Assembly (NCBI RefSeq): GCF_000413935.1 | Contig: NZ_KE340381.1 | Location: forward strand, 1 to 64,000 | Direction of reading: 5' to 3' | Length of the DNA: 64,000 nt | Source of the DNA: Acinetobacter colistiniresistens | GTDB lineage: Bacteria > Pseudomonadota > Gammaproteobacteria > Pseudomonadales > Moraxellaceae | Shown: positions 51,283 to 55,828 of the stretch, piece by piece | How the letters are laid out: each line of letters opens with the position of its first letter | Position numbering within the stretch: position 1 is the stretch's first letter | Made by a program: the position numbers and the translations under genes | Notes under the pieces: model-generated | Told to the model about the DNA's origin: nothing | Databases searched by the model: none | The model's input: only the letters and a program-made list of their open reading frames with translations

Positions 51283-51355
51283 GAAGAATCAAGAAAATGT
51301 TTCTAATTTTTGTATAATGCTGAATGTCCATTTTTATAAAAGTAATGACTTGGCT

Positions 51356-51823
51356 ATGCTTACTCATTTAGAACAATTTCTACCCAACAATGAACCGAGC
51401 AGCTTACAAAGCTATCCTTTTTTCTGGATCTCGCAAGTGAATGGGAAATACACGCAGCTTATTGAAAAATCAATTAAAAAATTAGGCATCGACAATACTC
51501 GTCGTAAAATTATTTTAAGTACCAATGCGCTGCAACAAGCCAGTATTACCGAGATTGCCAACCTCTCTACCCTCAAGCTGACCACGGCAACCAAAGCCAT
51601 TTATCGTCTGGTTGAAGATGATATCGTGCAGGTGTTCTCCTCAGAGTCAGATGAACGCATCTCAATGGTGAAACTCACTGACAAAGGTAAAGAGATGGTT
51701 GAGCAAATTAACCAGATCAGTCAGGTGACCTTATCTGGGATTCTGAATGCCTTTGACGATGCTGAACTGCACCAGCTCAACGGTCAATTGAAAAAGCTAT
51801 TTGATTTAATGCCCTCAAGTTAA
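51356..51823 (+). CDS. iacR: MarR-family repressor of the iac operon
   Basis: 155 residues from ATG 51356 (MLTHLEQFLPNNE). The in-frame ATG at 51317 overlaps a TATAAT box, so it would probably not be in the mRNA. The winged helix is visible: 'LQQASITEIANLSTLKLTTATKAIYRLVEDDIVQVF' and the wing 'ESDERISMVKLTDKGKEM', with dimer helices at both ends. It is divergent from iacH by about 150 bp. In other iac clusters IacR represses until IAA or a metabolite binds. Confidence 0.85.
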   Translation: MLTHLEQFLPNNEPSSLQSYPFFWISQVNGKYTQLIEKSIKKLGIDNTRRKIILSTNALQQASITEIANLSTLKLTTATKAIYRLVEDDIVQVFSSESDERISMVKLTDKGKEMVEQINQISQVTLSGILNAFDDAELHQLNGQLKKLFDLMPSS

Positions 51824-51919
51824 GGCAACAACAAAAGCCCATGTCTATGCAGAGATGGGCAAAACTTCGGATCGAGCCGGTTGCTGATTTAAAATATTGG
51901 CTTTAAGGAAGAAGTAACA

Positions 51920-52107
51920 GTGAACGAAGAAGTTATCGAGAGAATCTCAACCACACAGCATTCAGTCTCATCACAAGTAATCAAAGCTCAACAGAATTTG
52001 CTCGAAACAACTGAATTCTTGAAGCGGATATCATCCAAAAAGAACGGAAAAAGGAAATGCAACAGCCCCAACCTAAGCAGGATCGGGGTATAAATTTTGG
52101 CTGGTAA
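51920..52107 (+). pseudogene. Frameshifted small open frame and Rhs debris
   Basis: GTG at 51920 follows AAGGAAG and opens VNEEVIERISTTQHSVSSQV..., after which the composition continues best in a shifted frame (DIIQKERKKEMQQPQPKQ, ending INFGW). This suggests one lost base near 52024. I do not recognise the family; the tail style is like a plasmid-type protein. Just beyond (52107-52135), the minus strand encodes YDLNTGR, a scrap like the Rhs core YDPNIGRY at 53.07 kb. Confidence 0.35.
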
Positions 52108-52177
52108 TTATGTATGGCTATCGCCCTGTGTTCAGATCATATAAGAAAATACCAGATTCGGTTTGAGCCAGTAAATG

Positions 52178-52438
52178 CTATTTTATAATTTCTCTGACTT
52201 TTTCACAGTCTGTTTCATATCCGTTAAGGGGTAAACTATTTAGCATCGTTTCAAACTGTTTCTTTTTCTGTTGATCATTTGAGTTGATCATTGATTTTGA
52301 TTGATTAGAAAGAGAAGCTAGTGCTTCTGAATAACATAAATTCAAGCCGAAAGAATTGAATATACTTCCTAAATAGGCTGCCATAATAATCAAAAAAAGA
52401 AAAATAGTTGCAAATAAAAAAACTCTTAAATACTTCAT
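52178..52438 (-). CDS. Small membrane-anchored protein, putative immunity protein for the Rhs toxin domain
   Basis: 86 residues. One N-terminal hydrophobic segment (VFLFATIFLFLIIMAAYLG) acts as signal or anchor, followed by a polar domain with two Cys (LCYSEAL and ETDCEKV) that could form a disulphide outside the cytoplasm. It lies 70 bp downstream of the Rhs C-terminal toxin-like frame on the same strand, where immunity genes sit. No homologue is recognised. Base composition is more AT-rich than its neighbours, as is common for toxin/immunity cassettes. Confidence 0.55.
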   Translation of the reverse strand: MKYLRVFLFATIFLFLIIMAAYLGSIFNSFGLNLCYSEALASLSNQSKSMINSNDQQKKKQFETMLNSLPLNGYETDCEKVREIIK

Positions 52439-52508
52439 ATTTATAAACCTTATCTTAAAAATCCGAATAGAACCTGTAAAAAAGTCATTGTAAATATAAA
52501 TGATAATT

Positions 52509-53371
52509 TCATGGATTAAACTCCAGTAGGCTATTTGGAGTTTTACTACCTTGAGGAATATCTATTGATTTTGCTCTATTCCGCCACATAATAATTTCAG
52601 TATCAATAGGAAAAGGCGAAATTGAAGGGATTAGTGCTGATCTGACATTACCTTTATCTAATGCCTTTTGAGTCCTCGTTGCACATGTGTCTTTAAGTGC
52701 ATTTATTGGATCCTTTAATGGATTAGGTAATTTACTTGGATCATATTTTAATAATTCTTTAATCATCTCAGCTTCTTGCTGTGGTGTTGTATTTAAAATA
52801 TAAATTGTTGAATTTCTATAAGATGATTGTTTTGAAATGTAGTCAGTGAAGCTCTCTCTATAATTATTTTGAGTCCCTGAACTAAATATCCCCTGCCCAG
52901 TAAAGCCAATAGCAACATGACCAAATGGATTTGAACCAGTAGCATGTCCAACTACTACAGCCGTTCTTAACCCCATAGGATCCACATTATTAATCGGATT
53001 ATTACCCGATATGCATAGGTATTTAAACCGCCAGCCAGCCCAATCGGATCACTTTGAGTGTATCGCCCTATGTTTGGATCATAGTAACGATTCCAGTTGT
53101 ACCATAGCGAACTTTCCTCATCAAAATATTGGCCTGGGAAGCCGAGGTTGAACGCACCTATCGTCTCATTGGTTATGGTTCGCCCGAAACTATTATTTTG
53201 GGCTTTCCATACGATGGCTTGATATGGATTTGTGATGAATTCAGCACGACCGAGATGGTCATTGTGAATAAAATTCACTGTACTATTTCTAACCACACCG
53301 ACAGGTTCACCGTTAAACCAAATATAGACACTGCCAAGACTACCAACTTGCCATGTTTCTGCTATTAAACG
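52509..53371 (-). pseudogene. Truncated, frameshifted Rhs repeat protein end with an orphan C-terminal toxin-like domain
   Basis: Frame 1 (about 53371-53006) reads '[19 protein letters not shown]', [15 protein letters not shown] and '[21 protein letters not shown]', the conserved Rhs core. A one-base loss near 53006 shifts into frame 2, which carries [12 protein letters not shown] and a C-terminal domain to 52509. That domain has GHVAIGF (His23 of the 158-residue ORF starting at 52985) and later DTCATRTQKAL (Cys101). His before Cys with a 'D.CATR' motif resembles circularly permuted NlpC/P60-like (DUF4105-type) enzymes. The Rhs 5' region is missing and a stop lies upstream, so expression is doubtful. 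Confidence 0.75.
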
Positions 53372-54463
53372 ATGGAGTTGCAGTCACAGTAATTGTTGGT
53401 AATGTACCTGAGTTGAAAGACCTTTTACCCGCTTCACAGGCCCCCATAGTGATAGAACTGCTGCACATACCGACAATAATTTTTTTAGGATATAAGATTG
53501 GGACAAGGGAAGATCTCTAGGTATTCCGCAGAGCCAAAATATTAAACGGAGGTTTAAGCTGATTTACAGCAATCCGATCTGAAAAGGTCTGCAAAACCTG
53601 TTGCTTATAAGCAGCGATATCAACTTGCTGATAATTATAAAAACCCTGCTTTTCACGCAAGCCATTGCGTTGCTGTCGCATATTCTCGGCAATAATTTCA
53701 GGGGTTCGATAACGTTCGCCTAACTCTTTTTGTAAATATTGCGAGGCATAGTACAGGATATCGCCACCACCCCAATCAATAAATTCCAGTAAGCCCAATA
53801 CCGAAAAGCGCAAACCAAAACCTGTCCGAATCGCGATATCAATATCCTCAGCCGAGGCTACACCTTCTTCCACCATCCGTGCCGCTTCGTTCATTGCCAA
53901 GGCCTGAATCCGTGGCACGATATAGCCCGCTTTGGCATGACACACCACAGGGACTTTCCCGATCAACTGTAAAAAGCTTTTCAGTTGCGCAACCACGCGC
54001 TCTGAAGTTTGCTCAGAACGACTTAATTCCACCAGTGGAATGAGATAGGCAGGATTGAGCCAGTGCGCATTCAACACCCGTTCTGGATGAGAAATCATGT
54101 GCGCAATATCCGTAACCAGAAAAGTAGAGGTGGTCGATGCCACAATACAGCGAGATGAAATGAATTGATCCAGCCAAGCAAATACGCCCTGTTTGACTGG
54201 TTTCACTTCTGGGACGGCTTCCATTACAAGCTCACAGCCCGCTAAGCGCTGTACAGAGCCAGCCCGACTCAGAATCGTAATCTGATCCAGAATAAAAAGC
54301 TGTTGTTCAGGCTGAATAAATTGAATCTGTTCAAGTAACCCTAACTCCTGCTGCAAATCAGCTTGAATCTGGCTCTGATATTGCCCGAACTCAACTTCAC
54401 TGCGCTCTCTGGCATCAATCAAATTGAACCGTACCGGGTTTGTCGGAGACTTTTTTATTTAAG

Positions 54464-55366
54464 TTAAGCCACCTGACCTAACGGGTTAATCTTATCATAG
54501 TACATTGCTTCAAACTCAAAAGGCGATACATAACCCAGTGCACTGTGTACACGCTTTTTATTGAACCAATCTACCCAGTTTAGTGTCGCAAGTTGTACAT
54601 CTGCTAAACCTTGCCAATCTGCTTTTAAATATTCAATCACCTCTGTTTTGTATAAGCCATTCACCGTTTCAGCCAGAGCATTATCGTATGAATCACCCGT
54701 TGTACCGACTGATGCTCGTAAATTTGCTGCTTCTAAACGATTGGTATAGCGAATGGAAAGATATTGCACACCTCTGTCGGAATGATGAATCACATTCTTT
54801 GGCATGCCTCGATCATGCAATGCTTGCTCTAATGCATCAAGCACCATATCTGTATTCATCCGTGTAGATACTTTCCATCCAACAATTGCTCGTGAGAACA
54901 CATCAATAACAAATGCGGTATATACCCAGCCTGAATGAGTTTGAATATACGTAAAGTCACCCACCCATAGTTGGTTTGGATGATCAGCATTAAAATTACG
55001 TTTCACTAAATCATCTGCCCGTTTTTGGTCATCTCGGTTACGGGTGGTTTGTTTATTCTTACCACGCCAAACACCTTGTATACCTAGCTTTTGCATCAAT
55101 CGAGCAACTGTACAACGTGCAATAACATAACCCTCACGTTTCAATTTTTGCCAAACTTTACGTACACCATATCGACCTGAACTTTCTTTCCAAATTCGTT
55201 TAATTTGTTCAGCATGATACTCATCATGTAGATCTCGTTTCGCTCGATGTTCTGGATTGTCAGTGAGATCTAAAGTTCGGTAATAGGTTGAAGGTGCAAT
55301 CGGTAAAATTCTACAAATCGCTTCAACACCATATCGATCTTTATTGTTATGGATAAAATCCACCAT
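54464..55366 (-). CDS. IS3-family transposase OrfB, copy 2
   Basis: 300 residues, identical to the OrfB at 42197-43099, with the same intact Asp137, Asp197 and Glu233 catalytic residues. Both copies therefore look functional, consistent with recent transposition. Confidence 0.95.
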   Translation of the reverse strand: MVDFIHNNKDRYGVEAICRILPIAPSTYYRTLDLTDNPEHRAKRDLHDEYHAEQIKRIWKESSGRYGVRKVWQKLKREGYVIARCTVARLMQKLGIQGVWRGKNKQTTRNRDDQKRADDLVKRNFNADHPNQLWVGDFTYIQTHSGWVYTAFVIDVFSRAIVGWKVSTRMNTDMVLDALEQALHDRGMPKNVIHHSDRGVQYLSIRYTNRLEAANLRASVGTTGDSYDNALAETVNGLYKTEVIEYLKADWQGLADVQLATLNWVDWFNKKRVHSALGYVSPFEFEAMYYDKINPLGQVA

Positions 55367-55683
55367 TATTTGTGTGGGCGGTCGAGCTCCGCCTGGGCGA
55401 AAAAAGCGGCTGCTTTACGTAGAATTTCATTGGCACGTTTTAATTCTTTAATTTCACGTTCCATTTGCTTCATTTTTTCTTGGTCAGATATCTGTTGTAC
55501 TTTGGCAGGATTTAGTTGATCCAGATGCTTTAAATACCAAACACGCAATGTTTCAGGAGTACAACCGATTTTAGGAGCAATAGCTGTGATTGCTGCCCAA
55601 GTAGAAGGATAATCTTTTTCAGATTCAATTAGTAATTGAACCGCTCTTTCTCTAATTTCGGGGGTATAGTTTGGTTTTGTCAT
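55366..55683 (-). CDS. IS3-family transposase OrfA, copy 2
   Basis: 105 residues, identical to OrfA of copy 1; helix-turn-helix plus leucine-zipper helix. It overlaps orfB by one base. Confidence 0.95.
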   Translation of the reverse strand: MTKPNYTPEIRERAVQLLIESEKDYPSTWAAITAIAPKIGCTPETLRVWYLKHLDQLNPAKVQQISDQEKMKQMEREIKELKRANEILRKAAAFFAQAELDRPHK

Positions 55684-55828
55684 CGGGATAGTCTCTCAGA
55701 ATATTGACTCTCCGACAAACCCGGTACGGTTCAAATCAACTTTCAGTCCTGCATAGGCAAAGGCTATCGCAATCGCTTTGCCCATTCGCCCAGCACCCAA
55801 TACCGCAACCTGTTTAATTGTGCTCATC

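Follow-up and report, generated by a model that had tools for sequence, protein, structure and literature searches.

A rare Rhs toxin tip with a predicted permuted NlpC/P60-like fold, and its candidate immunity gene, within an insertion with an ISL3-type end in Acinetobacter colistiniresistens

Orphan Rhs-CT/immunity modules and immunity arrays are a known concept, and recombination between Rhs cores is the usual account of how orphan pairs arrive. The tips of Rhs toxins are set off by a boundary motif of the DPxGL type (PMC6833914). Tox-Act1, a T6SS effector of Salmonella, shows toxicity when placed in the periplasm but none in the cytoplasm, depends on both H43 and C151, and cleaves PG and PE; its immunity protein, Imm-Act1, is a membrane protein with two TM helices (PMC12994826). 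Tox-Act1 is said in the same source to be sister to DUF4105/Lnb. TseH is classed there as permuted NlpC/P60; it had earlier been proposed as an endopeptidase, and of two assays for phospholipase activity one was positive (PMC12994826).

Here we describe an Rhs tip and the gene beside it in a stretch of 64,000 nucleotides from Acinetobacter colistiniresistens (positions 1 to 64,000 of contig NZ_KE340381.1), which is referred to below as the window. The features of the pair and of the Rhs remains around it are these:

52509..52985, reverse strand: Rhs C-terminal toxin domain of 158 aa with His23 and Cys101 (AlphaFold2 model, PDB comparison, family alignment, relatives)
52967..53371, reverse strand: truncated Rhs core in a frame that differs from that of the toxin ORF (TIGR03696, E 4.7e-19, and reading of the frames)
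53343..53471, reverse strand: short open stretch with LPTITVTAT in the toxin's frame, overlapping the start of the core piece (by eye, against the Rhs N-termini of A. rudis and genome G082)
52178..52438, reverse strand: candidate membrane-anchored immunity protein of 86 aa with Cys35 and Cys78 (A. rudis homologue, immunity array of G082)
52119..52141, reverse strand: Rhs-core remnant of 23 bp on the downstream side of the immunity gene (87% identical, in the same orientation, to 53061-53083 in the core)

The toxin ORF opens with VDPMGL at a GTG codon at 52985, the sole start listed, and has His23 within FGHVAIGF and Cys101 within DTCATRT; the initial annotation had described a DPMGL boundary followed by a domain in which His23 precedes Cys101, and its coordinates and residues were correct. 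The core piece (53371-52967) scores 27.2 bits against PF03527, just below the cut-off of 27.9, has lost its upstream end at about 53371, and is separated from the toxin by a frame break between LNTYAY (53026) and VDPMGL (52985). The open stretch at 53343-53471 possibly, on a weak resemblance, stems from the region of an Rhs gene that encodes its N-terminus, and the remnant at 52119-52141 reads YDLNTGR by eye. Because the core is truncated and out of frame, and neither it nor an export signal is joined to the toxin frame, the local toxin is probably silent, or not produced as an exported protein. Judged on sequence comparison, the ORF is not a chance one: related domains are encoded at 14 loci elsewhere, and comparison with A. 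rudis gives a dN/dS of 0.16 (toxin) and 0.14 (86-aa gene), values that express constraint over both lineages jointly and not on the window copy alone. The features by which an Rhs polymorphic toxin is recognised, namely a core, a DPxGL boundary, a variable C-terminus and a downstream immunity gene, occur together in the long frames of three of these relatives (L007, L009 and L014). Apart from the window copy, this genome has a single Rhs-core match (L048, G000:C6:578000-594000), which belongs to a 336-aa Rhs-tip protein, which is preceded by a 1655-aa repeat protein and adjoined, by eye, by several small secreted-looking genes.

No Pfam family matched the 158-aa domain at E<=1 and no NCBIfam cut-off was reached. 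The absence of a named family, noted initially, holds for the Pfam and NCBIfam cut-offs and not for the superfamily, which includes the named toxins TseH and Tox-Act1. Models of ribosomal protein L16 were rejected for the domain: the match (E 0.026) scored 13.9 bits, whereas the cut-off is 233. An AlphaFold2 model built from 14 sequences reached a pLDDT of 90.1 and a pTM of 0.86. Foldseek returned nothing from the PDB at E<=0.001, its top rows being vasohibins at E 0.14. A second structural aligner placed TseH (6v98) first with Z 10.3, rmsd 3.7 and 139 residues aligned, followed by a Bacillus cereus enzyme (3kw0), which we take to belong to the permuted NlpC/P60 fold class, with Z 8.9, rmsd 3.3 and 129 residues aligned; the next matches were a DUF862 protein (Z 4.9) and H-REV107 and a viral 2A protein (both 4.6). 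By the aligner's own guidance, a best Z of 7 to 8 is usual for models that Foldseek does not clearly place; 8.9 and 10.3 are only somewhat higher, and the fold call rests on the gap to 4.9, on the coverage and on the two top hits sharing a fold class. Every one of the 15 rows of family alignment A4, the window included, has His23, and every one of the 14 rows of alignment A5, those long enough to reach it, has Cys101; Gly22, Gly32, Ser35, Gly37, Ser45, Tyr49, Gln53, Arg57, Gln70 and Ile143 are likewise invariant in A5. The model therefore supports a predicted fold resembling the permuted NlpC/P60 enzymes. This backs the suggestion, first made from residue order and motif, that the domain is of this kind, and the profile and structure prediction of 52509-52985 that had been proposed as a check did not yield a fold lacking a His/Cys site. 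A canonical NlpC/P60 peptidase was rejected on residue order, His coming before Cys. Comparison by hhalign of the toxin family with Peptidase_C92 and with one TseH-like sequence gave nothing informative, the alignments being shallow.

The one Pfam family whose cut-off is exceeded by any isolated member of the toxin family is Lnb_N (22.2), with 23.9 bits for the domain at L014 and 26.1 for that at L019. This raises the alternative that the domain is an Lnb-like lipoprotein acyltransferase, which would poison lipoprotein maturation or sorting, and not a hydrolase. The motifs GNPFGH and DTCATRT do look, by eye, like the NPSSMFGH and DNCAYRL of Acinetobacter Lnb_N proteins. On the other side, an hhalign comparison with 12 Lnb_N domains gave a weak 4.1%, although with the two cysteines in register, the full-length L014 protein falls below the cut-off at 17.5 bits, and three of the 15 family members match at E<=1, the window domain not among them. 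Searched with the toxin profile, the 12 Lnb_N proteins give no match at E<=10; searched with the Lnb_N profile, the toxin family gives only L019 (E 2.7) and a partial copy at L010 (E 6). Tox-Act1, moreover, hydrolyses its substrates (PMC12994826), and we regard the acyltransferase as quite improbable beside a hydrolase. The host genome has two Lnb_N (DUF4105) proteins of its own, at G000:C6:316148-316660 and C10:19489-19956.

The domain family is rare. Counting the window's own copy, it was found in two of 58 nearby genomes and in three of 175 genomes of the genus Acinetobacter, and a class-level search of 369 genomes found the window's own copy alone. A pattern scan of 84,980 species genomes gave 255 stretches, 14 of which encode relatives of the domain; the scan requires one of two short motifs, so relatives are undercounted. 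The hosts of these 14 loci are A. rudis, Variovorax, Xylophilus, Paracidovorax, Dyella and Sphingopyxis, together with MAGs of Desulfobulbaceae, Desulfocapsa, Verrucomicrobia, Rhodocyclaceae and Acinetobacter. Repeats of the window, L020 or L007 (L001, L002 and L004-L006) had been removed before counting. The locus L017, where the domain contains four stops, was excluded from A4 and A5 and kept among the loci used for downstream genes, a broken plasmid copy (L003) is in A4 and absent from A5, and the frame at L019 starts within the domain. At three of the 14 loci (L007, L009 and L014) the domain closes an uninterrupted frame, longer than 1400 aa, in which RHS repeats and DUF6531 are also encoded; at the remaining loci the frame is short or is ended by the contig edge. 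The N-termini at L007 and L009 are signal-like by eye. An origin from PAAR-Rhs proteins was rejected, as PAAR matched none of the Rhs proteins of L007, L009, L014 and G082 at E<=0.01; these four were compared, the window copy lacking its N-terminus.

Beyond chromosomes, a plasmid search gave a single record, a Pseudomonas aeruginosa plasmid with a cut-short copy of the domain upstream of an IS630 transposase. A phage search with the domain gave none, and none of 47 pattern matches on viral contigs was confirmed. Neither the toxin nor the immunity candidate of the window had a match at E<=0.1 in PHROGs and PADLOC. Searching the PDB by sequence gave nothing in one search and, in another, nine rows of unrelated proteins with a best E of 0.16. 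In the available parts of the literature on Rhs and permuted NlpC toxins we found no description of the 158-aa domain family, and the words NlpC and papain are absent from the available part of PMC6833914, which deals with T6SS effectors of A. baumannii.

Three of the relatives are arranged in ways of their own. In an Acinetobacter MAG (L020:458-940, also seen as L002) the domain lies in a free-standing protein with MRELSDYELSNVTGQG immediately before it, which resembles what we take to be a double-glycine-type bacteriocin leader and suggests that this protein uses a different export route; an anchored 107-aa gene overlaps the toxin gene, and there is no Rhs core in the roughly 450 bases to the contig end. 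A Desulfocapsa MAG (L010:1-2932) has tandem Rhs tips, consisting of a full copy of the domain, a TseH-like tip and an N-terminally incomplete second copy, and both copies of the window family are trailed by a lipoprotein immunity gene each. In Xylophilus sp. Leaf220 (L017:3-680) a sister Rhs tip, SSSFGHVS ... NNCG, matches the toxin profile weakly (E 2.3e-6) and has its own anchored 113-aa neighbour.

The gene that follows the toxin in the window starts 70 bases beyond it (52438 versus 52509). As had been noted from the sequence, it encodes an 86-residue protein with an N-terminal anchor and two cysteines, the N-terminus having a mean hydropathy of 3.0 across 15 residues and the cysteines being Cys35 and Cys78. 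It reached no Pfam or NCBIfam cut-off; DUF4834 and Fijivirus_P9-2 were rejected as under cut-off (E 0.04 and 0.06). A search of plasmids with the gene gave no match at E<=0.01. In A. rudis an Rhs protein with the same tip, in an open frame of 1405 aa (NZ_BBRX01000032.1), is followed by a 77%-identical 86-aa gene, so the pair exists joined to Rhs in a single open frame. The initial annotation had called for intact Rhs proteins with this C-terminus and the 86-aa gene next to them, and A. rudis provides one, with the two genes co-occurring outside the window. On the strength of such gene neighbourhoods, the reading of the 86-aa gene as a putative immunity gene for the 158-aa tip, the two forming an orphan pair, is supported.

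Clear homologues of the 86-aa protein (E<=2e-10) occur in six of 175 genus genomes, that of the window counted; a further six matches have E 0.003-0.01 and are weak, and stops interrupt five of these. In G082 (L045:4071-11591) a 1444-aa Rhs protein, whose tip has instead a weak ParB_N match (21.5 bits against a cut-off of 26.3), precedes a series of small genes that contains a copy, and we read this series as an array of spare immunity genes. The first small gene of the series is also present, by eye, in a second, similar copy. A distant form of 90-93 aa is found in genomes G101, G171 and G027 (L036-L038, about 1501-1782), with no Rhs within the 3.2-kb stretch, standing alone between genes that by eye are YbeD-like and lipB-like. 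These Rhs-free forms could mean that the 86-aa family has a role besides immunity.

The 86-aa type adjoins the toxin in only two genomes seen; at the 13 remaining loci that have a gene downstream of the toxin, that gene is of other types. The third Acinetobacter holder of the toxin (L020) has a neighbour of another type, so immunity types vary within the genus. By a simple rule, the downstream gene is anchored or lipobox-bearing at 14 of 15 loci, compared with 25 of 139 control ORFs, which were taken from the same loci at >=250 aa and are not size-matched; the starts of the downstream genes were chosen manually, with an internal ATG at L008 and L009. At L013, the exception, a Cys lies close to the beginning of the protein, and the start codon may have been placed wrongly. 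Among the downstream genes, homology (hhalign 97.75%) joins eight lipoproteins with three anchored proteins. Three types have no convincing link to that group, at most 7.4%: that of the window (86 aa), that of L020 (107 aa) and that of L018 (80 aa), the last having been compared with the lipoproteins only; nor did hhalign give a convincing link between the 86-aa type and those of L020 and L018. A model of the major lipoprotein immunity family (pLDDT 89) was compared with 384 chains, none of which exceeded Z 2.3. Since apparently unrelated downstream genes share one topology, the target of the toxin is probably periplasmic.

Acyl cleavage of membrane lipids by the domain is favoured as its predicted activity, on the periplasmic target and the precedent of Tox-Act1 (PMC12994826). 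The periplasmic site would suit equally well a domain with the same fold and the same partner whose substrate is peptidoglycan, acting as an amidase or endopeptidase as canonical NlpC/P60 enzymes do, and TseH, the closest solved structure, was itself once proposed as an endopeptidase (PMC12994826). The order of His before Cys speaks against peptidoglycan, as does the fact that the permuted toxins tested so far, Tox-Act1 and TseH, hit lipids in that source, and we think this substrate unlikely. Under the favoured lipid-acyl activity, an Rhs protein with an N-terminal signal sequence would carry the domain into the periplasm of a neighbouring cell, where Cys101, activated by His23, would attack acyl bonds of membrane lipids and so break the membrane. 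Phospholipids would be the substrate, the acyl chains of lipoproteins being less probable. The 86-aa protein would be anchored in the inner membrane, its C-terminal part facing the periplasm, and would block the enzyme there.

The pair sits in an insertion of 1637 bp (51899-53535), whose boundaries and further contents are as follows:

51891..51898, no strand assigned: left copy of the 8-bp target duplication AAAATATT (empty sites and overlap of flank alignments)
51899..51912, forward strand: left end of the insert, GGCTTTAAGGAAGA, a weak terminal inverted repeat (10/14 identical to the right end)
51923..52101, forward strand: 3' end fragment of a plasmid relaxase/mobilization gene (plasmid matches; annotated relaxase in pD36-1)
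53522..53535, reverse strand: right end of the insert, GGCTCTGCGGAATA, an ISL3-type terminus (13/14 identical to the ends of ISL3 elements at L124 and L120)
53536..53543, no strand assigned: right copy of the 8-bp target duplication AAAATATT (empty sites and overlap of flank alignments)

The MarR gene to its left (51317-51823) is present in 62 of 173 genus genomes. Among the best 19 other MarR loci, 16 run from MarR to a 3-hydroxyacyl-CoA dehydrogenase gene without the insert, two (L072 and L074) are arranged otherwise and one (L075) matches in short pieces only, so the insert is present in none of the 19. At ten of them the flank alignments join exactly at 51898/53536 with an overlap of 8 nt. 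Of the 13 site sequences displayed, 12 have a single AAAATATT, and L063 has AGAATATT. An 8-mer common to two random places in the window turned up in 39 of 1,000,000 trials, and random pairs with 10/14 identity and the first four letters equal in 30 of 200,000. The 8-bp target duplication looked for in an ISL3-type insertion is therefore present. The ISL3 element at L124 (G077) has ends that match at 19/22 positions and an 8-bp target duplication of its own, and is, by the rule applied, the one locus among 26 ISL3 loci scanned with a recognisable end pair and such a duplication; a window-like end occurs in two of the 26 (L124 and L120) and nothing of the kind in the other 24, some of whose flanks are possibly too short. 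No transposase gene was seen among the ORFs of the insert, and an ISL3 transposase match is absent from this genome and present in 24 of 149 genus genomes. The relaxase fragment matches 74 plasmid records, 71 of them from Acinetobacter, at 77-87% identity among the 20 matches listed, and resembles relaxase genes of small Acinetobacter plasmids. Plasmid searches with the right part of the insert gave nothing at E<=0.01 and chance rows only at E<=10, and a genus search gave two chance-size matches besides its own. From the duplication, the ISL3-like right end, the relaxase fragment and the Rhs scrap we infer an ISL3-type insertion event, probably from a plasmid setting. Elsewhere in the window, the 3-hydroxyacyl-CoA dehydrogenase gene is split close to its beginning by an IS3-type element (54425-55730) in which two transposase ORFs were recognised by eye, and this element is absent from 16 of the 19 related loci.

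These remains also fit another account, in which the locus is decayed debris and both genes are functionless passengers of a degraded Rhs and plasmid fragment. The truncated, out-of-frame core, the relaxase fragment, the Rhs scrap at 52119-52141 and the absence of the cassette from the 19 related loci examined all agree with it. Both ORFs, however, are open, and their dN/dS of 0.16 and 0.14 against A. rudis speaks for constraint, though perhaps mostly in the time before insertion. We hold this account to be somewhat improbable; it concerns the present state of the locus and is compatible with our preferred explanation. According to the latter, the pair would have entered the genome on an insertion of 1637 bp whose right end is ISL3-type and which lacks a transposase, and at present, with the Rhs carrier truncated and out of frame, the immunity gene only is probably still expressed. 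To the whole of this reading, an Rhs warhead with its immunity protein, attack on lipid acyl bonds, arrival by an ISL3-type event and continued expression of immunity alone, we give a probability of about 0.6.

If the reading is right, the locus is a base-exact example of an orphan toxin/immunity pair entering a chromosome via transposition and not through recombination of Rhs cores. A rare family would join the permuted NlpC/P60-like toxins, and its several apparently unrelated immunity types with one topology would yield a clear target prediction. A wider generalisation, which we consider unlikely, is that Rhs tip/immunity pairs travel as non-autonomous ISL3-type cassettes mobilised in trans, with the L020 warhead placed on another export route; genomes would then gain immunity, and a spare warhead, through transposition and independently of Rhs recombination.

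Going by predicted fold and residues, the domain would work like Tox-Act1 and TseH. The likeness to Tox-Act1 and Imm-Act1, as far as the features described in PMC12994826 go, would lie in the permuted NlpC/P60 character of the toxin, its His and Cys, action in the periplasm and a membrane-anchored immunity protein. Tox-Act1 differs in being delivered by T6SS whereas the window has an Rhs tip, and in a His-Cys spacing of 108 versus 78 in the window domain, and Imm-Act1 has two TM helices where the 86-aa protein has one predicted anchor (PMC12994826). TseH, the T6SS effector of V. cholerae, is the closest structural match (Z 10.3) and shares the permuted core (PMC12994826), but its PF25218 is not matched by the window protein; PF25218 does match the other Rhs tip on the Desulfocapsa contig (L010:917-1768, E 6.9e-21). 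With Lnb_N/DUF4105 (PF13387) the family has in common the isolated domains of L014 and L019 over the cut-off and, by eye, similar FGH and NCA motifs, whereas the Lnb_N proteins are longer and common (at least one in 19 of 24 genomes searched) and the window protein is unmatched. The model points to a putative new permuted NlpC/P60-like family of Rhs tips. Like orphan Rhs-CT/immunity modules, the locus has a CT and an immunity gene without an intact Rhs, scraps of core nearby and an array in G082; unlike them, the window pair lies in a discrete insert with a target duplication and an ISL3-type end.
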